Source: Owenia fusiformis
Lineage: Eukaryota > Annelida > Polychaeta > Sabellida > Oweniidae
Reading direction: 5' to 3'
DNA length: 64,000 nucleotides
Assembly (NCBI GenBank): GCA_903813345.2
Contig: CAIIXF020000003.1
Location: 13,654,931 to 13,718,930, forward strand
In this document: piece by piece, positions 12,194 to 34,700 of the stretch
Layout of the letters: the number at the start of each line of letters is the position of its first letter
How positions within the stretch are numbered: position 1 is the stretch's first letter
Made by a program: the position numbers and the translations under genes
Notes under the pieces: model-generated
What the model saw: only the letters and a program-made list of their open reading frames with translations
The model's database searches: none
What the model was told of the DNA's origin: nothing

Positions 12194-12682
12194 ACGCTCG
12201 ATTACGCTGTCGGTAACAAATTGTCGGAACGTTGAAGGTACGATTTTTCTTTTTTCCTTATTTCACGCCTTGTAGGCAGAATCCCCATGACATTTTTTTC
12301 TCACAAACGTGTATCCTGCATATGTTTTAGAAAATGTACATGGTTGCGAAAAAAGCCAAGAAGACAACAGAATCGTCGATTTAATTCCTCACTTAAGTTA
12401 CATAAACGGTATGGGTTAAAAGTGCAGATCTTAACTGTTTTTCGAAATACCGTTTATGTAACTTATGTGAGGAATTAAATCGACGATTCTGTTGTCTTCT
12501 GAACTGTTTGTTCGCAAATATGTACATTTTCTTAAACATATGATACTGATACAAGTTTGTGATAAAAATGTCGTGGGAATTCTGCCTACAACGTGTGAAA
12601 TAAGTAAAAAAGAAAAATCGTACCTTCGACGTTCCGACATTTTGTTACCGAAACGAGCCGTTGGTAACCAGCGTAATCGAGT
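12194..12682. mobile_element. Fold-back element, arms of about 220 bp
   Basis: The left arm (12194-12417) and right arm (12437-12682) are reverse complements with modest divergence, leaving a loop of about 20 bp. Both outer tips carry CTCGATTACGCTG. Paired landmarks: TTAATTCCTCAC...GTGAGGAATTAA and CGATTCTGTTGTCTTC. It lies 20 bp from the donor of gene B exon 5. Confidence 0.8.
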
Positions 12683-12701
12683 GGATCACCAGTGCCATTA
12701 C

Positions 12702-12946
12702 CTCTTTGCCTAAGCTGATTTTCATCTCGTTCCATTGGCTATCGTAAATCTGGACAGTAGTACCATCAGTGGTTAAAATGGCCAGTTGTACAGTATGCGA
12801 TGAGTTCTTAGCAAGAAATTGAAATTCATGTTCAACCGGAAACGTCGGATTTTCATCGGGGATCATGCTGCATTCAAATACGACTTTGTTGATTTCCTGT
12901 TTTGGATTCGACAATGTGACATTTTTGGGTTTGTTTGGAAATTGCG
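12702..12946 (-). CDS. VWDE-like: Gene B exon 5: VWDE linker region
   Basis: 245 nt, acceptor TTTCAG|CGCAAT, donor AAAGAG|GTAATG, phase 1 in, phase 0 out. Encodes QFPNKPKN, FECSMIPDENPTF, HEFQFLAKNSS and ISLGKE, paralogous to gene A exon 7 (12 nt shorter). A fold-back element (12194-12682) lies 20 bp beyond its donor. Confidence 0.92.
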
Positions 12947-15900
12947 CTGAAATAAAGAACATTTTTACTTAAAATAAAAATGAAACAAATGTATATTTGT
13001 AACTTTTTATTTACTAGTTCACTTCAAAAACAGATTGATATCAAAACATCACATTGTCCACTCAACTATAGCTAACTATGACCTCATACTTAGTTTTTCT
13101 AAAATATACCTGAACAGGGTTCCATATCGTCCCCATGTATGGATCTTGTTCCATTTTTACATTTAACCTTGTGACCTGAAAAACGATCATTTGATTGGCG
13201 AACATTCCGAAAAACTGGGTCGAGGGAAAATACCTTGTTGGCTTTGTATAAAAAACCTCCCACCCACGTACCCTCGTACCCACGTACGTGGGTCCTGACC
13301 CAGTCTTTAAAGAGTTAAATCTTTAACATTTTTTAAACATTATTCTATCTCAATGTATGCTTAATTATGGATGAATTTATGTACCCATACGCCTTTATTT
13401 CTAGATCGGACATCTGTCTCGTCATAAAATAAAGCCGGTGTAAAAGGGTAGGAGGTCCTATCAAATTATGGTCCTACTCTCCATTGATTTATATGGTGAC
13501 CTAAATACAAGTCTTTCCCTCATTATCTTACAGGCAATCAGGGCCAGTAAGGGCCGTTAAGAAAGGGGACCATAATCCCTGGGAGACCATCATTTCTTTC
13601 ACACCGGCATTGCATAATGTTCATTTGAGCTATTTGAGGTATGAGGTTCCATATCCATCCGCCAAAAGGTATGACCCCTATATAGTCCATTTAAAAACCT
13701 GTAGTATTGTTCTAAATAACGCCATAGTTGGCTACTAGGGTACCTAGTATGCCACTATTTGGTATCAAAATAAAGAGGAGGAGTTCAACTTTCATTTGAA
13801 TTACGAAAATAGCGATGTAGGTCAAAAATAGTTCCGACGTGAGCATGTTTACTACGCGTTTGCCCATCATCTCAGAATTGAGGAAATTGTAGCAAACGCG
13901 AGTTACAATAAATGGACGCTGATATCTCAAAAAGTAACCTGACTCCCTATAATTTGATGTAGATCAATCGAACCCCTATATGAACAGGTACATTTTGATA
14001 TATAACACTATGGAGGGTAAGCGTTTTAAAGTTGATCACGAACGCCATATGTGCAAAGTATTGATATGAATTTTCGAATTTGGTGTTGGATTACGGTACT
14101 CATACCCTAATCAGCACTGATGTGTTATACAGGTAAGACTGCCCGATCAACAAAAAACATTTCGACAAACATAAATCAAATAGCTCAAAAATAATGAACA
14201 TTTATGCAATTCCGGTTTTATTTTATTTTACTAGAGAGATGTCAGACCTATAAATAAAGGCATATGGATGCATAAATTCATCTATAATTCAGGATAAACT
14301 GAGATTGAATAATGTTTTAAACATTTAAAAATTTAACTCTTTAAAGACTGGGTCAGGACCCACGTACGTGGGTACGAGGGTACGTGGGTAGGAGGTTTTT
14401 TATACAAAGCCTACCTTGTTGGGGTCTTGCTCGCCAAATGATGCCAAGAAGTGACAAACTTTTAATAATTTCCTCCTGTTGATTAAATATGTATTGGTGA
14501 ATTTTATATCACTGAACATGGTAGTACTCGTTGAGAATCACAAAACGTTACGGTTTATCATTTATTTGGGATTACGCAGGGGTCATTTTTCAAAAGAATT
14601 TTGTTTATCCCAAGGTTGCAAAGATATCCACCACTGTTCAATTGTCGCATGCATACAAGACCGTCGTGTTGAATAAAATCTAAATGTTACCAGCACAATA
14701 TCCTTCAGGTGGTGAACATCCACTTGCTGTAGGCTTCAGTTTGTACACGTAAAATCCAGCACAATTCGTCACTTCAATAGGATATTTTTTGTCGCAATTA
14801 GTGGTTCGACCCAATACGCATCCTTCCAAACGGGCCGATTTTCCATAATTAGGATGTGTGCCTATATAAAAAAGGTATTTAAACATTATTATTGTAATTG
14901 ATCTTCAATTGCCTCACACATCAAGTTAACACTATTTGTTTTTCGTTTAATTGTGAGGATTGTTGCATTTAAATGGCGACGCTTGAATTTTGCGGGCATT
15001 CTTGCTCTCATATTTTTTTTATCGGTTTTCACCAGATGATGACTAATGGCCTCCTCACATATGAAGGAATCCAACTAGACTAAAAAACTTTGCAAATTGT
15101 TTAAATTGGTATTGGGAACGCTGACATCCGAACCAAAATGCTACTTTCCGCATGCCGACCGAAGCTTTCAAAAAGCGGGTACTTCCGTATACAAACACCC
15201 GAACGATGAACAACGTACCTATACTAATGGGAACGAAGTTTACTCATGACAAGTCCTATTTGCTGGTACACGGGAGTTGACGTTCGACGTTTTTTGCGGT
15301 CGCTTTTACAGGAAAAAATTGTAATTGTTTGACTGCAGTTTGAAAAACGAAAATTTTACGGTAGATTCCCGTAAAAATACGGTAGGTTGGCAGGTATGCG
15401 TCGTTGGGTTTGCCTTCATGTATGAGGAGCCTTTAGACAATGTCTTGAGACAAGGCCCCCTCACATATGAAGGAACAAACCAAACGCAGTCTTGCGAAGT
15501 CAATTCTGGCTATTGAAGCTTTCCGAAGGGATTCTTAAAATTTAAAGTAATTTTAGTTTTTATTAGTAAACCATACTTACCTAATATTGCCACTATGTGC
15601 TAACATCCACCATTGAATCTATCTATGGCCAACTTCCCGGGAATTTCTTGAGCATATTACACTGTGCACCCCCGCACAAATGCCCGGATATTCCTCAATT
15701 ATTCCGCTATAACATTTATGAACATTCTGCTGTAAGCGGAGGAGGAGGGAGGGACATATTTGTAGTGGCAATATTAGGTAAGTATGGTTTACTAATAAAA
15801 ACTAAAATTACTTTAAATTTTAAGATTTTACTACGCAAACCTTTACTACTTACACTAATATTGCCACTATGTGCTGAATCCCAGCCAAGTAGGCGGTGGT

Positions 15901-18900
15901 TTAAACAGCAGAAAGACCACGGGAATAGAATAAATTTGCAACAAACTACAAATTGATCAACCCTACAACTTTAGGTAACCCAACTTTACATCCTAAAGCC
16001 TTCGGGACTAAGGAACTTAATAACCTAGTACAAGTTCTGGGGTGAAATGTTTAAACTGTGTTAAACACTTAACAAAACTAATTATTCAGATTCACTATGC
16101 TAAAAAACTACTGAGTATTATTTCATATATGACTCAATTGGCCACTACGATAAAAAACGGACGTCTATCTATGGCGGGGTAATTCAACCATCAAAGGTCA
16201 ACAACAAACTTATACCACAGTACAAATTCTGACATTCTGATTGGCCATAAAGTTAAGAAAAATGTCAGAATATTTTCTAGCATAGTCTTAGACTTACATA
16301 CATGACTTGGAAGTAATTTAAGCTGCCCATTGTGCCTGCTTTAAACATGTCTTCCACTCAACTTCTAGAAACAAAGATTGAAGAAGTAGCTACTGGTCTT
16401 GACATAACGTTTTCGACCCTTCTTTAACAGCTACATGTGTATACTTCTGTATACCTTGTACATGTATAGATAACAGCTAATAATTGCTTGATTAAAAGAT
16501 CTAAAGGAATTATATTGAAGTTCCTTTAATGTATCTGGTTCTTCAAATCAATGCTAACTTTTCGTTCTCTCTTTTGAGTAAAGGTGAGACGAAGTACTAC
16601 ATCGGTTACCACATGTTGGATTCTTTATGATCTTCGAACTATGAACACCAGTTGTTTAGATATTCTTGGGATTGTGATAACTCCGAAATCCCAATTACAT
16701 CTTTAAATATTAAACATCTGGTATAAGTGCTTCTGCAAAGCATTGTAATCCTTAAAGGCTAAGCTGTGTCTGAATGATACACTACGTAGAGATTCATCAT
16801 TTACTCATTGCCATTAGGATCACATGTTCGATCATTGAAGAACCCATGTACACCCTCCTTATTAGTCGAGTATGCTTGGTTGTTTACAATTCAACAATAA
16901 AACTGTGCATATTACCGAACACTTTCTGAAAAAATCGGTAAATTAAAGATAGTCATGTATCCAAACATGTCTAAATGATACCTGCTGAATACAATCCTAG
17001 ATCTTGGTAAAAACCCAAGAAAGAGATTATAATGGTTAAGAGTGGATAAGTTCAACTGAACGACAACACTAACTCAAAACCTTAAAGAATCATTCGACTC
17101 TAGAAGAAGTTATCAGGACAAGATCATTTAGGAACTGGTTCTGAAAACCCTCCTCTGATATATGCTGACAATTTACTAGAACAATAGTATTTCATAATTG
17201 TACGATATCATGATAGAATATATCATTAGAGAGTTCCAATTACAACAATTACAGGTAAATAAGACGACTACCAAGTAATTCAGTGACATTCTAGTCTTAT
17301 AGCATATATAATGTGATAAAGATTTTTTGTGTCTCTTGGTAAGAAACACCTGCAATGTATTTATTACTAAGGAAGATATACGTTTCATGTATCTTCTAAT
17401 ATTGCTGTTTAGTCATAAACAAACATGTATACTATGACTAAAATATGAGTAAAAAACTCATTAGAATGCAATGGAAATGCAAGCTCACATTAATAAGACT
17501 ATGATGTTCTAAACATCAATATTCTTTGAATCTGAAACAACAAACAATTCAAGTGAGACGTCTTGATGTCTAATAATTACTAGTATTACACATCAATTGA
17601 ACTGTAGTGTCAGATATCACAGTATTGCTTTCTTGCAATATAGGTGTTAAAAACCCATCACGCTTCTCATCCTTAAAATCTACAGGTGTTTCACTTTCTC
17701 TTGTTGAAAATGAACCCTAATTTTGAAGGATAGTCTAGCTGTCAAGCAACGTGGATATTCGTTATGGTTTGCATCTTTGAACACAAAAATGTTCTTGGGC
17801 AACTTTCATCTACCTTGTAAGTGTTCAAGAACCGTTCCCATATAACATGTATAAATAAAACGAGAATTATTCTCGCATTGAAATCCTCTGTTAAACACCT
17901 CAAGAGGTTGACCACCATCTGCCTCAATTATGAATGGTACAGAGGAAAATAAAGCAACGTTAAAAGCCTTATTCAATTGCCAAATAGAATATAGGCAAAC
18001 AGCACTAAACTACAGTAGCTAATAGGAATCGAACCGATGACTATGTGGTTCCTGAGAATTTACATTCCTGTGACAGGGCACCAAAATGCCTTGTTAATTA
18101 CTTGGAATCTTGACATCATAAACCTTAGATGTATATTTGTCCTATTAAGGGGGTAGTGACATTACTAGTCTCAGGACAGGACGATTCCTTAATTCAGTGT
18201 TCTACTCAGAACAACATCTGAAAAAATATACTGTCTCAAAAATGAAACTATTTGATACAGTATAGATGGAGTTGAAGATAATTCGCATAGAAATATCTCC
18301 AAAACCGCACGGAAACGACTGTGATTTCCGTTAAAGATTAGAACATATGTATAACAGTCAGCAGAAAATGTCTGTGATTCTTAAAATCATGAGACTGTTA
18401 CAAAAATAACTTGGTCACAATTTGATCACGACAATTTTTGGCATATGTGTGAAAAATTGCCACTGTTAAAATTAATTGACCAATGCGTAAAAAGGGAAGT
18501 CTGAATCTCTTGTTTGGAAGAGCTCATGTTAAGACAAACGAAACCATGTCTGTAACAAAGAGTACACTAGCTCTTGAGTATATAGTACTTCAGTACCACT
18601 AAATGATGTATTGAGGTTCTACCACCAAGGAAACATGGTAACAAGTGATTCCATGGTGAAAAAACATAAACCTCTAATCAAACATGTAAGATCTCTCAAA
18701 TAGTGATTGAACTGAACACTGATGATACACTGATTTAAAGTAAATGTGTGGCTATTTAAGACACAAATGTTTACACAGAAGCACGGCACGACTGTGAACC
18801 TGTTGAAGAGTGATACGGTCATGACTGAGGCTGGCTCAGTAAAACACTCTTCAAAACAGTGATTAAACTTAAACCGTGTTTAAAAACTGAGCAACCTGAA

Positions 18901-21900
18901 CAAGGTCAAAATAAACACATATTCATTCTGTGTGTGATGTGGTAGCAAACAAGCCAATGGTCTGGATATACAGATATAGGGACTTGTTATAAATAAGTAT
19001 AACTACTTCCTCTCGTCACAAAAGAAAACCTTTGGAATAACACCCAAGGTTGTAGTGAAAACACAGAATTTGATTTACAGTCTCTTGAACTGACTTACCA
19101 AGAGATCTGAAAAGTCATCTTAGACTTCAATAATCAACTTTTGACTTCAAAAGCTGTCAACGGTCAAGGCTAAGAAAAATAAAGGAAACAAAACCTTTAC
19201 TGAGGTTAGACATAACCTTACTTAAACTGGCAAACTGAAAGCCGCCAAATGTTTTAGTTTTCAAAAAACCTCGACTGTAATCTAAATTCCTCAAACAATT
19301 AACACTGAGTTGAATGCTTTATGAGAAGCATCTGGAGAAAGTAACCTATGTCAAAGATACTTCCGCCAACTCAACTCTGAACGTTAATATTCCAGGAATA
19401 GAGTCTTAATAGGAGTATTCAGAAATTATTCTTGAGAATATAAAGATTTCAGTCAGAAATGACAAGTTCATGACATTGTCATTTGTCAACGCATACAACA
19501 CTTCCTATATGAATAAGTACTTGTGTTGTTCAGTTGTTGGCTAATATAGAAGGCTAGTCTAGTGACTCAAACTAAAACAATCTAAGTCACCTTCTACTTC
19601 TCTGTTGAAGAGACTGAATCAACCAATAACAGGATGATTGTGATCATCCATGAATCGTTTTCTTCAGCATATATTAATAGCAACATCTACAATTACTTGG
19701 AGAAAACAGAAACGCTCAATCAGAGACAATAACTTATATGTCTCTGATTCGAAAAGATTTTACATCTACTTGGAAGATGAGTAGGCTAAAAATGCTATAT
19801 TGGTCTTTTCTGTGAAGAAGATGACGACTTCACAGTTAGGCCTACTGTTAATCTTACAGTTACTTTTGTTAATCTTTAGCCTATCCTTTTTCTGAACAGT
19901 AGACAAACAACTCAGTCCAGAAATAACTGTACCAAATGCATAAGTGACAAACTTATCCTGCTGTGCATAACTAGTATAAAAACTAAATGGACTAAATAAA
20001 CCAATTATACTGTGGTCAGCATACGTGTTCTATGTATGCAACATTATATGAATACTACACCAGATTTAACAACATACAGTGTTACTTTCTAAATACATTT
20101 AAATGTATGTGAACCAAGTGTCTTCATCTGAACATCATCGTGATCACGCTACTGTAAGATGAAGAAATATCTTCTGTAAGATGAAGAAATAGAAGAAATA
20201 TCTTCTTCATCCTAGGATCATACAGTCTATGCTCGACACATGTCAAATCCTGAAAGACAAATTTACTGGTGTAGTTATTTCTTCATGTTTACACAATTCA
20301 TATCGGGACTGGAGTCCTTTTATAAACTATGCATAAAGAAAAGAGATGATAACTGCGTTCTTATGAACACGTATGTGTTTTCATTGTGGACTTACAACCA
20401 AAAAACACATGAGCAGTAAAGAAGCCATTTCGTCTGCGTTCTCCTGAACACATATGTGTTTTTATTGTGGACTAACAACCAAAAACACCTCAGCAATAAA
20501 GAAGCCATCTTCAGATGTAGATGTAGATATTTTTTCAAATTTCTCATATTCATCTGGAACTGAACACGTTTATGTGATAAATACAGAGACGAAAAATTGA
20601 GAGCTATGTAATCTTGAACAGTTAATGTTTTCTTTATGGACTGACAACCAAAAGAAAAACCTAAATGATAGGCAAGGTACTGTAGGCATAAACACAGTGT
20701 CTACCTTCTTCGGGCTTCCTTACTTTCTTATCTGGATTGAAAACCTCTCATGTAACATAACACAGAGAAGAACAATATGTAATATTACGTTCTCTGTACA
20801 TGATGTCTTCTGATGGTCTAATGACCTGTGAAATTGTCATTTATATATGACAAATTGTCTGGAAAAAGGTCAATTGACACTAAAGACCTTTTCCATATAC
20901 TTACTATAATCTCATGTCGGGACTGAAGACCCTATATGGAGCAAGCAAAGATAAAACGAACGAGGTAAGATCTTCGACATTTTATAGATCAGATGTTTTC
21001 TTTGTGGACTAACAACCCAAAGAAAAAACCTTGAAAACTTGTCTTATAGTTCCATATGATCTATTTTCCTCGTCCTCTTACTTTCATTTGTAACTGATGA
21101 ACCTGTAGAACAACTAACTTCCTAGTTCCGTGTCCATAGTCACAAGTTATTTGTAAATTTATTGCGATTCTAAAATTTCCGTCTTTACAGAAGGAAAATG
21201 GCGGAATAATTGAGGAATATCCGGGCATTTGTGCGGGGGTGCACAGTGTAATATGCTCAAGAAATTCCCGGGAAGTTGGCCATAGATAGATTCAATGGTG
21301 GATGTTAGCACATAGTGGCAATATTAGTGTAAGTAGTAAAGGTTTGCGTAGTAAAAACTTACTCATACAAACACCCCAACGATGTACAACGTACACATAT
21401 TAATAGGAACGAATTTTACTCAATTCATATTCGCGAGACTACGTTTAGTGGATTCGATTATATGACAGGGGGGCTTTAAGGCCTCCTCATACAGCCGAAA
21501 CTCCAGCTAAACTCCCGGCGTCAACTTAAAACAATGCCATATATGTAGGATTTATATCTAATTATATGTAACAAAGTTATCGGAATGTTCATAAATTCCA
21601 AGGGTATGTCAAATAATCTAGCCATATGCATTTAATCTTGAAAGGAATAGAACATATACATTTTCTCAGGCTTTAAATAAAAAGTCTGAAATCTACAGTC
21701 TTGAATTGAACTTTGTCCAATTTACCGATATAGTTCTAATCGATTTGCAATTTTTACTGGGTGGGAATACATACCTCGAAGCCAAATAGGAGAAAATGTG
21801 TTGCAGTATTGAATTTCCTTCGGTGGTGAAGAAGGCATTTTTCCACCCGCTGCACTCGTGAACCTGTACCATCCCTCTATCAAATTGTTGTCGCACCCTG

Positions 21901-23999: not shown

Positions 24000-25030
24000 T
24001 CAAAGTTTATTGAAATAAAGAGGTGATTGAAATTCGACATGGCGGCAAGAAAAACTTAGGTAAGGGCACGGACCTCTGCCAGATTACCTCCTCTGTGTAT
24101 AGGCTCAATAAATATACTAATTTCCTTTGAGCCTACTACCAACATGGGCTGGATCTGGCTCCGGATCTGTGGGTAAGGGGCCAAAACCCCAGGCGTCAGA
24201 ACCATTTACAAATGTTTGTCTTATTAGGTTTTAATTCATTTACCCTCATTTGAATTTTCTCATCCTCCGATCACAGGGCTTCAAAATCCAGAATATGTTC
24301 TTTCTATTTACCCCCTGCGATAAGCAGTTAGTATTTCCCCGATTAAGAACTCGCACTCTGATTGGCTGTCGCAACACTGCGACATAAATCATAAGTCATT
24401 GCGCATTATTAGATCACGTGATTCAGTTTAATCGGGCGCTTCAAAATTGGTTATATATAGCAGGGGGAAGAAGGAGGTACGGATTCTGGATACCTGCTTA
24501 GGGGAATGAATTTTCTTGGAATTCAAACTATTTAGATAATTAAATGCAGTAAGCTTAATATTTTAACATCAGACATGCTTTAGACATGTGAATAGCGACA
24601 CCATACTGTTTCGCGCTATTAACATATTGCGCTGAAGATAACAAAGGAAATTCTAAAAATGTTATTTAGGGATACAAGAACTATTGTTTAAACTAATAAA
24701 ACAATATCAATGTTTTAGTTTTTTCCTCAAAGACTATCAAAGTTTATCGAAATAATAAGGCGATTGAAAGTCAACATGACGTCAACCTTATTGCCGAACT
24801 TGGGTAAGGGGTCACAACCCTTTACAAATGTTGGTCTTATACTCTTTATCTTCCCTCATTTGGAATTTTTTTGTATTCAAACTATTCAGATAATTCAATG
24901 CAGTAAATAATAACATTTTAAGCGATTGAATAATGATTCGCATGTCTAAAACGCGTATAGCGAGACCATACTGTTTCGCACTATAAACATTTCGCGTTGT
25001 AGATAATAAATGGAATTCTAAAAGAAAAAG
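24000..25030. repeat. Imperfect tandem duplication, two units
   Basis: Unit 1 (about 24000-24670, including the MITE at 24260-24506) and unit 2 (about 24735-25030) share the order TATCAAAGTTTAT.GAAATAA, TTTACAAATGTT.GTCTTA, TTCAAACTATT.AGATAATT and CCATACTGTTTCGC.CTAT. The MITE is present only in unit 1. Confidence 0.7.
24260..24506 (+). mobile_element. MITE family M1, copy 1
   Basis: Starts TCATCCTCCGATCACAGGGC and ends GGATTCTGGATACCTGCTTA plus GGGGAA; TGAATTTTC is duplicated on both sides. Subterminal ATCCAGAAT/ATTCTGGAT form an inverted repeat. Unit 2 of the host duplication gives the empty site. Other copies lie at 34705 and 42344. Confidence 0.75.
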
Positions 25031-25636
25031 CGATGATACCTATGCGGTGCTTACCATGCTTTATTAATGCTCATGAAAAAAATTGACAACAAAACATTTC
25101 AGCTTATCAAACGCCGTAATTTAAAGAACACTCTTGGTGAATATGTAACAGTTTCCTTTTCTTGCATCGCTGAATAGGGAACGTATCGCTTTTATTTAGT
25201 GATCCTGTTCTAGCAAAGCGGGAAAATTGAGGCTTTTTTGCCACAACGTCATACCCATATTTAAGACGATGTAGTGAAATATTTTCAGAGTGAACATTCA
25301 AATTTTTGTCATTCAATGAGATCATATATGAAACCCTTCCGAAAAAAACAAACGGAAGCAGTGCATTCATGGTTCCCCAAAATTGGCAAGGTTAGAGGTG
25401 AGTCCTCTTAACAACGAATAGTTCATACAATTGTCAAAAACCTCTGGAGAGTGAAACAAATATAAAGTAAGTATTTTACTAAAACCATTTGTACTTCAGT
25501 AACATCTCCATTGGAAAATTGCTATGCCCCCTCCCCCGATATCAGTAAGCCTATTAATATTAATGTTTATGCGTATTTTATTTTATTTTAAACCATAGGA
25601 CTAATTCACAACGATTGGCGGTTTGGCGTTATCAAA

Positions 25637-28700: not shown

Positions 28701-31700
28701 TCTTCGCACGCTCGGTCTTCATTGCGTTCCGACGGGAGCCGAGTGAACGAAGATGATTATTCAGTAAAGCCAGTCACCTTTTGAGAGGCCAGAGAAATCT
28801 GACCAATCAAAATACAGGATTTCTTCGTGATGTCATTGTCCTGATTAAAGTCAATTGCTCTGCAAAATTATGTAACATTAATAGGGTCTAGCTTCTGCAC
28901 TGTATAATAACTTATTAAATATAGGCTTTGTATAAAAAAAACTTGTACCTTATGCCCACGTACCATCGTACGTGAGTCGTGATTCAGTCTTTGAAGGGTT
29001 CAATTTTTAAAGCTTTAAAGGATTGTCTGATCAATTTTTTAAAAATAGCGCCATAGGCTCAAAGGCACGTCCAATAGTCTTGGGGATCGTAAATTCATCC
29101 CTACACACGAAAGTGTAATTGTTTGCTCATATTATGGATGGTGATTCCGAATTGGATGACGGGGAGAGTAGTACACCCATAAAGACAAGGTTGTAATGCA
29201 ACCTAAATGTGGCAATATAGTCACACCTTAAAGACGACTTCCTGGAAGTCCTCAGCAAATGAAAAACGTGACAATTTTAGTGAATATTGCTTCTAGTGAA
29301 CGAGCATTAATAGATAAAGGATCCGTCATACTAATATTATAAAACTGCCCCCAGGTCATTCATGACCATTATGACATATAATATGGTATTTAGAAAGGCG
29401 TTAATTATGGCATAGTGTTCAGGTGCATCCTAATTGTTATTGAGGCCATAGTGACCTTGTAAAGGTCAAGTCAGTGCATATCTGATAATAAAAGATTATT
29501 GTGTGCAATTTTGACCTTAACCTTTGATTTTCATTTCATTTTTTGTTTTATTATTTTATTTGGTTCCATTGACTTAGCATATGGATATCAGCATGTATCG
29601 ACTTGATGATATCCTGATGTTAAGTCAATTATTCTTTCAAATGAGCTGGGTATAATGCTCCTTCTTAACCTTGGGACAGCCTTATCTTGATATTCTAGGC
29701 AGGTTACCAATTTCCCTTGAGTTATTAATCAATTGCATAGTTATATTCTTAATCCACTTTGTACATTTGTAGCACGAGTATAGTCAACATCCAAAATGGT
29801 ACAAAATATTTCGAAGAAAATGCTCGACATATACACATATTTCAATGCAAATGCGTGACATACGGAACTCCGTGAAAAGTCCGAACGGAATGCGTTCGCC
29901 TTTTTCCGACGTGCACTAATGCATTTACAATTCAGCATAGACGAAGATTGAATGATCTTATATTTTAAAAATTGAACCCTTCAAAGACTGTATCATGCCC
30001 CACGTACGTGGGTCGGGACGTGGGTACGAGGTACTAGGTTTTTATACAAAGCCTTAAATATACGAGAGTACAGGAATGCATAGTATATAATAAACAATTA
30101 CACATGAAAACATGGAGACTGGTATCCATGTCGTGTATTTAAAAAAATTGTACAGACACCATCATACAGAATTTAAGAGTTGTTCAGACACCATCATTCT
30201 TCGAAACGAAAAACAGATAATATGCGTCCTCTGCTTGTCAATTTAGGTTCGTTTGAAAGACTGAGATAGTATACATAAGTGGGGAGATATTTGACGCTGT
30301 TAACAAAGTATAAATATGAAAAATATTCATTTTTCTGGCTTAATCGAGAAAATCGTACAACTTGTTCAGACACCATCAATTACGAAGGTCACGTGATGAC
30401 AATCCCCACCGTGCTGTGTTCGTGAAAACTAATTTTTTGTTTGGGCTATGTGAAAATGGTGCATGCAACCAGCACGTGATAATATAACATACTACATGTA
30501 GTATTCAAATCAAATTGGAATGTTTGAAACTTTACAATTATATAAATCTATACAATTTTTAGGCAAACCGTGTGAAGAGTACACAACAATCGATGACTAC
30601 ACCCGCTCAACTGGTTTCAACAAATTAAACCAACATAATCCTGAATGTGATAACAATTTAATCGAGGGGTGGCATCGTTTCATTAGTTCTGCAGGCAACC
30701 ATATGCCATCTTCACCACCTAAAGGAGCAACTTCATGCAACACAAATTCTCCTATATGGTTACGAGGTAACATCATGTCCTCGAAAATAGTTCGAATAAA
30801 ATTGTAGAACTTGTTGTTTCGTTATGCACATTTATGTTGATGCAAGATGCTAGCCTAGCAACAAACCCTCGTGACCCCTCATTACACTCCTCTTTGCAAC
30901 CGACAGTCGTTATATACAGCTACTTGTGCTAAAAATCTAATCCCTTAAATTACAAAAACATCAACAGAGTGAACTATATTTTTAAAGTTTTGATATGGTT
31001 GTCAAATTAGTTGATGATATGGTAATATATGTTTATATAGTTAATATGATGTCATAGAGCTATAGCGCTGTGTGGAAGGCAGCTGGAAGATATGATGAAA
31101 CTTGTCCATAGTCTAAACCTTCACTCCTGTACTTAAATCCATATTTTCTCCATGTATGGTCTCTATCTGTCATCAGATTAATTAAGACAATATCAAGAAG
31201 TTAGTTTCAAGAAAAGTGTGATCAATTTTGGTTCATTTCACCGAGGTGGTTTTTCTTTAAGCTGCTTCTCAACTGAGCAGGTCATTTAGGATTGAATTAT
31301 TTACACAAAGATGGCCACACTTTAGAGCAAAAATACTAAAATGTTTGACAGTGAAATAACATTTTGTCAATTAGTAAATTTAAGAAAAATTAATTTGTCA
31401 CATGTTCATCCAAAATAAAGTTCGGCTAAGTTGAATTGACGGAGATACAGATGTTTGAAAACATGATGGTATCTATATTTTAAAACTTTGCAAAAATATA
31501 ATGTGATCAATATATGTAAGTTAGTTCAATTTCATCACTTTATGAAAATATCGGAAGTTTTAGGAAGGTATAGCAAACTTCACATACCTTAGCCAAAAGT
31601 TTCCTCTGCTGATTTCATAAGATGAGAGTGTTATGAACAATATCTGCAATTTTCATTATTTTTCATAGTCTGATTCTTTAAAAAACAATTAAAAAGCAGG

Positions 31701-34700
31701 GATGGAAGGGGTTGAAAATCAGGAAAACATTTCAGAAAAAACATGTGGGTGGTTTGTTTGCATCTACCCAGTCTCAAAGTCGATATTATTTCATCACCTC
31801 TAGAAGTGATTTTCCTGGAGGTAATGCATTGGCCTAACATACCCAATTGTTTAAATCCTCAGAAAATGGCCAAAATCAAACATATGACTGTCCAAAATCT
31901 GTTGCGCTAATTTCCCTCCTCCTTTTAGTATAAATGCATCCAGAAAACAAACTGCAACATCGACAGTTAGGAAATGGTAAATGTAAAAGCGGATTTTTCC
32001 CAAAAATATAATATGAAAATACGAAACACTTGTGAGGACGTGTTAATTATAAACTAACGTCAACTATTTAGGTTCACTTCCAACACAAGGAGGATACGCC
32101 CGTCTTGTGGGATGTGCAAAAACCTTAAGCAATGTTTGTAACAGGCAGTATCCCATTGGAGTGAAGCACTGTGGAGACTACTACGTGTACTATCTAAAAC
32201 CAACGTCGAGTCAGTGTTCCCCAAAAGAGCGATATTGTGCAGGTAATATTGTATACAAATTTATTCCATCCATAATGTAAAACAATAATGATGCTGTAGA
32301 GAAAAATGTCGCCCACGCTAATTCTGTGCAATATCCTAAGTTATATTTACTTTTAGGGAACAAAACAAATTGCCAAGACGGGCTTCGCTCAATCAATGGA
32401 GATGGCATAGAACCATGTTCAGGTACCATATACCATGGCTTTGTCGAATATTATACAAACATTTAATTCTATTCATCAGGTTAATGTACATGTACATCTT
32501 TCACAAGTGATATTCCACGAAGCTCGAAGGGCTAATGGAATAGCATCCCGTTGAAGTGTCACAAGTATTCACTGAAAATATAATTAAATATTTGTTTTAA
32601 AATTCGCTGTTATATTCCTTTAATTACTCACATTAACTTTATAACAAACTATTAATGTTTAATTAAAAATAGCAATGTACTCCCGGGGATATGTAAAATT
32701 AGATTACATTGAACTTAGTCGTGACTGGTTAATATAATTTGATATTCAACGGAAGTAATTTGACTTCCGTTGAATATCGCTTGTTATTTTTTTGTCATGT
32801 GAAAGACATGGGCCAATCAACGAGTGAAAAATATGACAGTAATATTTAATTTTATTTAATTCTATATACCTGTGCATCTTTCACAAGTGATATTCCACGA
32901 ATCCCGAATGGCTAATGGAATTTTATCATGTAAAAGTGTCATAAGTATTCACTGAAAATATAATTAAATATATGTTCTTTAATTCACTTTTAGATCTCTC
33001 ACTTAAATTAACGGATAACAAACTTTTTTTTTTTAAATAACATTGTACCTCCGGGGAAAATAAAATTGAAATTACACTGGACTAAGTCGTGACTAGTGAA
33101 TATCATTTGATATTTTCCACGGAAGTCTATTTTCTACCTTTAAATATCGCTTGTTATATTTAATTCGAGTGTAGGACATGGGCCAATCAAAGAGTAAAGA
33201 ATATGACAGTGCTATAATAATGCTAATTATTTCTTAGCAAGATATACGATGATCGATATTTTACAGTCGATATGTTACGACAAACGCAAAGCTCTATTTA
33301 GTGATATTTTCATTTCAAATATGGCGGCTTATCCGATGTCTGACAACCCTTACAAAAATTCTAAGCAGTGTGCATTTTTACCTCCTGTGAAATAACAAGT
33401 GGAACTTAGTAGTTGTTTTGTGTTTTATTATCATTCTGCATCGTAATTTCTATGTGATGTGATGTTCAAATGTCTGCAGAAATACATATCCATACGATAG
33501 TCGAGTGAATTAGATAACAGATTTTTCGAAAACCCGTCTCCTGCTAAGAGTGTAAAAACTTGTATTAACATGCTCAAAAGTACCAATTTGCACATCAATG
33601 TCAAGCTAAATCAATGTTGTGTCTAAAACAGGTACCTAATCTACTCGAAACAGCTTGTCATTCACGTATACACGCTTAGCAAACACGGCTAAGAGTGTAA
33701 AAACTTGTATTAACTTGCTCAAAAGTACCAATTTGCACATCAATGTCAAGCTAAATCAATGTTGTGTCTAAAACAGGTACCTAGTCTACTCAAAACTGCT
33801 TGTCATTCACATATACACGCTAAGCAAACACGGCGAAATAATCTGAATCTTGGTCGTTCGAGAGCTAGTAATGTTTGTCTCTAGTTCGAAAGACAATCGT
33901 ATCAACTTGAACAAAAGTTGAGTTTTGACAAAAATTTTAACATGCGCAGAAGTCCCATTTTCGTTGTACCATATTGACTGTTTACATGTTGTTTATTTAC
34001 CATCATGTTAGTTTCTACTTTGCAGCCTTATTTCCTAATAGGCCTAAGGAGGCGATCATGCACACACCCAGGGAAATGAAAGGAAGTGATTTTGAGGGAG
34101 TCATATTTGAGTGCAGTGTTGTTCCGGAGATTAATCAATCCTACCCAACAATTCACGAATTTCAGTTTTTAGCCGAAGACTCATCAAAAACCGTTGAATT
34201 GCATACATTTGAATCAAACAACACCAAAGTGTTTATTACGGACGATCATTTTGCTAGAAAAGGCATCAGTCTCGGAAAAGAGGTATGCACAAACTGACTC
34301 ATATCATATACAATACGTCATTGTTGACTATTATTCAATGTTTTTTGTTTATTTCAATGTGGTCTAAAATGATAAATTGTGCTCTTTTCCACAGCAATAC
34401 TTTCTTAATAATGGATTGTATGCTTGTTTCTACGTAACATGCAGTTAAGCATTCTTTTTTAAGCATTGTTCTGTTTCACTAATTTGAACATCATGACTTT
34501 AGGTGTTTAGGTTTTGACACTTTAGGTGTTGTATTTCTTGCTAAAAAAACATTGGTATTTTTCATACATTTGATATTCATGGTTTGCTGTGAGGATACAG
34601 AGAAAATGTTTAACGATGACTATCAAAACCACTGGAGGGTATCGTGATGCAAAAACACAGTGATGCTGCATCAAGATGGCCAGCCTTCCGGTGATAGATT

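Follow-up and report, generated by a model that had tools for sequence, protein, structure and literature searches.

A non-autonomous DIRS-type retrotransposon family of Owenia fusiformis with a hairpin array in its degenerate gag

Introduction

DIRS1-like retrotransposons have a terminal plan in which inverted repeats at the two ends are accompanied, at the 3′ side, by an internal complementary region (ICR) that joins both outer ends (PMC3266345). The element described here matches that account (PMC3266345) in its inverted terminal repeats, a 3′-side ICR of both termini, the absence of a visible target duplication, a length of 5.8 kb and relics of gag and of the tyrosine recombinase (YR), but it differs from DIRS1-like elements in that its family has no coding capacity and carries an array of hairpins, with three of the four units lying in about 940 bp of extra gag-region sequence. 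According to PMC5633606, the replication model of DIRS-1 has been proposed but not fully proven, and TRE5-A.2 of Dictyostelium is a non-autonomous retrotransposon mobilised in trans. Elements of the TRE5-A.2 type have, like the family studied here, kept their termini, lost their proteins and left young copies; the present family differs in being nearly full length rather than internally deleted, and its helper is a presumed one.

RNA viruses are known for ordered RNA structure on the scale of the whole genome. The present family resembles them in folding along the whole element beyond the needs of codons, but it folds equally on both strands and is dead as coding sequence. Coding palindromes of up to 284 bp occur in mitochondrial genes of Nematomorpha, as reported in PMC6649704; these have in common with our case that inverted repeats lie within coding sequence, whereas the stems described below are short, mostly 8 to 15 bp, and belong to a retroelement. 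DIRS elements are known as a class, and in the open literature we found no description of a non-autonomous member with a hairpin array, of a hairpin array in a DIRS gag or of a hairpin excess in DIRS coding regions; the word "hairpin" is absent from PMC3266345. With its genes gone and its ends and hairpins retained, a young family of this kind lets cis-acting signals be told apart from protein constraint, and the question of DIRS-1 replication becomes testable. Comparing a dead family with its coding relatives is also a way to ask whether structure in retroelements is selected or a by-product of codons.

Four paired sites share one loop

The window, i.e., the whole stretch of 64,000 nucleotides of O. 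fusiformis DNA analyzed here, had been described in a first-pass annotation as containing four hairpins with an invariant 13-nt loop and two classes of stem, each paired over 8 to 9 bp. The loop TGGACTNACAACC is indeed found without mismatch at all four places (starts at 20387, 20468, 20637, and 21005, all inside 631 bp), within the minus-strand hairpins H1 (20374 to 20409), H2 (20455 to 20490), H3 (20625 to 20659), and H4 (20993 to 21027). The longest Watson-Crick helix that the 13-nt arms can form measures 8, 8, 8, and 9 bp in H1 to H4, respectively, compared to a mean of 4.6 to 5.0 bp for shuffled arms (p = 0.023, 0.019, 0.016, and 0.008); permitting G-U pairs raised these p values to 0.079, 0.085, 0.033, and 0.017. 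When the arms of H1/H2 were exchanged with those of H3/H4, just 5 to 6 bp of helix remained. The two stem classes and the lengths of their helices thus hold, except that the helices do not directly close the 13-nt loop and that the pairing register of the two classes differs by 3 nt.

Since H1 and H2 belong to a tandem duplication of 81 bp, and H3 matches H4 at 91% across 35 nt, the array amounts to about two independent cases rather than four. With helices set off from the 13-nt loop and registers 3 nt apart, there is no column-wise covariation among H1 to H4. Covariation measures on five sequences (H1 to H4 and the H2 of subfamily B, the H3 of that subfamily being left out) were no better than in 500 shuffles, and the expectation that covarying pairs would be seen was not borne out. 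RNA folding z scores of the single hairpins were modest on both the plus strand (-1.1 to -2.3) and the minus strand (-1.1 to -2.7). At the gathering score, Rfam returned no match in the window; four sub-threshold matches fell in 15500 to 21400 and none at H1 to H4. A tRNA, a tmRNA, or an Rfam RNA was considered as the identity of the hairpins, and none was found at these four sites. Three of the sub-threshold matches resemble box C/D snoRNAs and lie on the sense strand of the element (minus) at 16487 to 16551, 17111 to 17218, and 19451 to 19521 (E values of 0.35 to 2.6); they are probably due to chance.

The hairpin array is specific to one repeat family

The genome searched comprised 498 Mb in 525 contigs, in which TGGACTNACAACC occurs 125 times, compared to 20 times for the reversed pattern. 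The annotation had expected further copies of the loop, and these exist: a 28-nt core, allowed up to 3 mismatches, was found at 90 places in the genome and at none for the reversed controls, a count in which the H3 of subfamily B is missed owing to a one-base deletion. All 90 matches lie inside the arrays of the family, which confines the hairpin to this one group of repeats, and with no core within 3 mismatches outside it, the exact site is present in none of the other DIRS elements of the assembly. A DNA search with the array returned 27 rows corresponding to 26 arrays (one is split by an insertion) that are 90 to 100% identical. For detailed comparison, 20 other copies were used, giving 21 with the window copy. 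Unit spacing is nearly constant in these 21 copies (81, 161 to 175, and 359 to 374), the exceptions being those that have gained an insertion, lost a unit, or had a site altered by mutation. A sequence-only model of the hairpins recovered just the four window sites, with none in the coding relative L057 described below and none in L058.

L058 (G000:C6:16465800-16468600) is a 2.7-kb short copy that has both termini and the ICR and is devoid of the array, with position 18019 joined to 21162 in window terms. From this one such copy, the array may be dispensable, or L058 may be a plain deletion. Captured host sequence was also considered as the source of the interior; a search with 3.9 kb of interior gave at least 39 rows, and those listed lie at or near known copies or L058, with no other donor among them. 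One copy, L023, contains a Gypsy-like frame of 1336 aa (named by inspection).

The array lies in a dead DIRS-type element

The whole element spans 15533 to 21356 (5824 bp, minus strand), with its 5′ end at 21356, its 3′ end at 15533, and boundaries common to other copies. Its 5′ inverted terminal repeat (21198 to 21356, minus strand) faces a 3′ inverted terminal repeat with an outer extension (15533 to 15710, minus strand), and the two match in inverted orientation at 93.8% over 162 columns (21198 to 21359 versus 15555 to 15710). Of the 20 other copies, 16 have the left boundary, which makes 17 of 21 with the window copy. Next to the 3′ repeat lies the ICR (15763 to 15875, minus strand), a copy of the circle junction in which the 3′ end (63 bp, 100%) and the 5′ end (55 bp, 98%) abut, each as its reverse complement. 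As the ICR marks the 3′ side in DIRS1-like elements, the minus strand is the sense strand of the window element. A comparison by eye of the flanks in the 17 copies that have both ends shows no common target-site duplication, and the left context of the insertions is mostly (A/G)AN.

None of the 17 copies with both ends has a frame longer than 125 aa. For the other four copies (L011, L023, L027, and L028), the left end was not found, and the frames listed there include flanking or inserted DNA. The gag, RT/RH, and tyrosine recombinase genes are absent as frames, and only a relic of the gag start (ATGGAC at 21137) and a relic of the YR C terminus (16295 to 16399) are left, which is why we call the element a non-autonomous derivative rather than a complete DIRS. 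The YR relic matches at 40% over 35 aa by tblastn, with an E value of 0.054 in the window copy and of 0.024 to 0.16 among the 10 of 21 copies that matched; the remaining 11 gave no match at E values up to 1. A stop codon lies within this relic.

Altogether, the window element is almost certainly a derivative of a DIRS retrotransposon, and what the annotation had termed an undescribed element is a non-autonomous one of this class. The four hairpins lie in its decayed gag region, the termini and the ICR being kept and the frames lost. A classical DNA transposon with long inverted repeats is ruled out by the ICR, which joins the reverse complements of both ends, and by the relative L057, and a MITE nested at the left end by the block at 15533 to 15825, which is common to the copies with a left end. 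On the right of the element, 66 bp (21357 to 21422) are 85% like 15181 to 15246, about 290 bp to its left, and the element may have inserted into repeated sequence.

A coding relative retains open frames

L057 was found through a one-mismatch form of the element terminus, and at its 5′ end 9 of 10 bases agree with the first ten of the window family. The sequence examined (5,666 bases, from the 5′ end to just beyond the ICR, which occupies the equivalent place) contains three open frames: one that is gag-like (576 aa), one for RT/RH (757 aa; RVT_1, 2.5e-21), and a third, of 990 aa, that overlaps the RT/RH frame and has a YR-like end. This YR-like part is named a tyrosine recombinase after its sequence motifs, and no match to it was accepted in Pfam. 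The genome holds at least 64 matches to the L057 RT, many of them single open frames of about 750 aa, so that proteins able to act in trans are available, and they presumably do so. Eleven of these matches, 53 to 54% identical and covering query positions 59 to 755, are candidate members of the type of L060, a further relative treated below.

When its minus strand is compared with L057, the window element aligns in the first 456 nt (20901 to 21356; 64%, 481 columns, E value of 8e-35) and in a 3′ part (15737 to 16436; 70%, 717 columns, E value of 1e-91), with weak diagonal matches between. The 5′ homology is carried largely by the terminal repeat, which is aligned with the L057 5′ end; the leader after the repeat, aligned alone, did not exceed all 300 shuffles. 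H4 is orthologous to the L057 gag codons NVSRGYSQSPKKR, and H1 to H3 lie within about 940 nt that L057 lacks, as judged from the shift of the alignment diagonals. Two related repeats accompany the hairpins on the minus strand, namely P5 (20298 to 20342, sense GGACTCCAGTCCCG) and P6 (20912 to 20956, sense GGGTCTTCAGTCCCG), the latter aligned with L057 gag GGGTCGTCAGTCCCG (KGRQSRK). A further minus-strand hairpin (19810 to 19835) has a loop, TCGTCATCTT, that is common to L057; relative to its counterpart the loop is kept and one stem pair is altered on both sides (C-G in L057, A-T here).

Folding exceeds chance along the element and in three of four relatives

Hairpin density in the element reaches 5.62 per kb, compared to 1.62 in dinucleotide shuffles (3.5-fold). 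Of the 16 four-kb segments of the window, 13 are clear of the element, and there the density is 1.79 versus 1.47. On the sense strand of the window copy, four stretches gave folding z scores of -3.5, -4.1, -5.2, and -1.8, compared to 1.5 to -2.6 for six other window stretches. Two further copies gave -3.3 to -7.1 in six of six segments, and 81 control segments had a mean z of -0.49 (sd 1.71), with five at -3 or below and one at -6.1. The element folds equally strongly on both strands.

Further relatives (L059, L060, and L061) were compared in their 5′ parts, that of L061 being a 600-base piece; the RT frames of all three are open. Against shuffles of synonymous codons, folding z was -4.4 for the gag of L060, -4.0 for that of L059, -4.0 for that of L057, and -6.6 for the L057 RT/RH frame, which overlaps the long YR-bearing frame, an overlap that the shuffle ignores. 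The controls gave -1.4 for a Gypsy open reading frame (ORF) (p = 0.07), +0.4 for a LINE ORF, and -1.3 for one host-like ORF. L061 is weak (z of -1.9 with synonymous and -1.1 with dinucleotide shuffles), and the L057 YR C terminus is not structured (z of -1.0, synonymous shuffles). Hairpin counts are small in L060 and L059 (5 and 7). H1 to H4 are part of an element-wide excess of hairpins that is common to three of the four DIRS relatives examined. Among the controls, the most structured segment (z of -6.1) was the first 1400 bases past the element end in the right flank of the copy L009.

A hexaloop recurs with different stems

On the sense strand, H1 to H4 can each be read as a hexaloop NAGTCC closed by TTGT/ACAA (AAGTCC in H1, TAGTCC in H2, CAGTCC in H3, and TAGTCC in H4); in H3, the closing strand is AUAA and a G-U pair preserves the pairing of the inner stem. 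Such hexaloops, closed by at least 4 bp, are formed at 4 of 8 sites in the window element, 5 of 7 in the L060 gag, and 3 of 50 elsewhere in the window, and at none of the sites in L057 (0 of 8), L059 (0 of 2), or L061 (0 of 5). The five in L060 are closed by 5 to 10 bp with stems that differ, and three units owe a common inner stem to duplication, which means that the L060 units are not all independent. At the seven AGTCC sites of L060, folding energy sums to -72.0 kcal/mol, compared to -31.9 (sd 6.8) in synonymous shuffles, none of 500 being as low; AGTCC-site folding against such shuffles gave p = 0.004 for L057 and p = 0.02 for L059. The apparent 5′ end of L060 starts with TTTTACTACG, identical in 10 of 10 bases to the window family. 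Selection on folded RNA or single-stranded DNA, which the annotation had read from the four hairpins, gains from these results and from the folding of the whole element beyond chance, but its argument from compensated stems fails, as stem changes among the four sites show no column-wise compensation.

Stem evolution within the family

Within-family tests of conservation, stem pairs, strand, and subfamily, whose results point both ways, relied on an alignment of 14 of the 21 copies; the other seven either contain sizeable insertions or deletions or lack the left end. At variable stem pairs, with the window copy as reference, 12 one-sided changes preserve pairing, compared to 2 to 7 when the partners were slid. 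Pairs altered on both sides numbered 0 to 2 per reference among about 270 to 310. G-U and A-C changes (15 versus 21) showed no strand preference, and together with equal folding on both strands this means that sense RNA is not favoured. In the stems called from two A copies, fixed differences between subfamilies fall below expectation (9 versus 19.9 and 8 versus 21.0 expected); the stems called from two B copies show no such shortfall (19 versus 18.5 and 20 versus 21.1 expected). Conservation of the hairpin cores does not significantly surpass that of random windows within the family (p = 0.24 to 0.67), the figure for H2 being weighed on by one copy with a lost unit.

Origin and retention of the hairpins

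Our preferred explanation, held tentatively and at somewhat less than even confidence, is that of a dead DIRS element that is mobilised in trans and has kept its structure. Its parts differ in strength. Trans-mobilisation is very probable: the element would still have multiplied because other DIRS elements supply the proteins that act on it. The hairpins would have been retained as structure of the element RNA or of single-stranded cDNA, and that selection for folding has kept them is plausible, if a little short of evenly balanced. The stems with NAGUCC hexaloops near the 5′ end might constitute a putative signal for recognition or packaging, the other hairpins representing general folding, a specific role that we think unlikely. 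In its most ambitious form, also improbable, the idea would be that the DIRS gag region harbors a dedicated stem-NAGUCC-stem array that, together with element-wide folding, marks the RNA or single-stranded cDNA for the retrotransposition machinery, and that the gene-less family has kept these marks and parasitises intact DIRS elements.

The repeats could instead be leftovers of serine, proline, lysine, and arginine repeats of gag, inert since the death of the gene, in which case pyrimidine-rich Ser codons would pair by themselves with the purine-rich Lys/Arg codons that come after an intervening Ser-Pro (AGT CC). The alignment of H4 with L057 gag codons speaks for such an origin, as do the richness in S, P, K, and R of the gag-like frames of L057, L059, L060, and L061 (by inspection), hairpin cores that evolve no slower than other windows of the family, the absence of column-wise covariation among H1 to H4, and the five NAGTCC sites of L061, which form no hexaloop. 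However, folding in three of the four gags clearly exceeds that of synonymous shuffles in which both protein and codon usage are preserved, and the excess extends to the L057 RT/RH frame (with the caveat of its overlap) and to most of the interior of the dead element, so that we regard inert codon repeats as a somewhat unlikely origin. Template switching in hairpins at a single-stranded cDNA stage would also generate them, by perfecting palindromes while loops stay as they are and with function unneeded; DIRS elements reportedly pass through a linear single-stranded cDNA intermediate. Such a mutational process would fit an excess that is alike on both strands and in coding and dead elements, the one loop with different stems in L060, and the B-copy stems, whose rate of substitution is undiminished, as though they had arisen recently. 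It is quite improbable nonetheless, given that just 0 to 2 of the roughly 270 to 310 pairs per reference changed on both sides among the 14 copies, that A-copy stems are depleted in substitutions, and that L061 shows little excess.

By analogy with the Su(Hw) sites of the Drosophila gypsy element, the array might also be a set of DNA sites for a host factor near the 5′ end, each consisting of a linear core with A/T-tract flanks. The 28-nt core stays linear at each of the four sites even though the register of the stems shifts, and all four lie within about 1 kb of the 5′ end, as such an array would have it. We consider it very unlikely, since the core is found nowhere else in the genome within 3 mismatches, arms exchanged between the classes lose their pairing, and a second family has the hexaloop between different flanks.

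Other features of the window

Two segments outside the element are also structured (24201 to 25600, z of -2.7, and 12601 to 14000, z of -3.4) and may be other inverted-repeat elements. Cysteine-rich frames at 53208 to 53690 and 54424 to 55086, with EGF-like repeats recognized by inspection, are probably exons of a host gene for an extracellular protein (53208 to 55086). ARAGORN predicts a tRNA-Asn (gtt) of 93 bases at 29401 to 29493, perhaps with an intron or a pseudogene. Finally, two 145-bp copies with 95% matches stand in tandem at 33543 to 33834.
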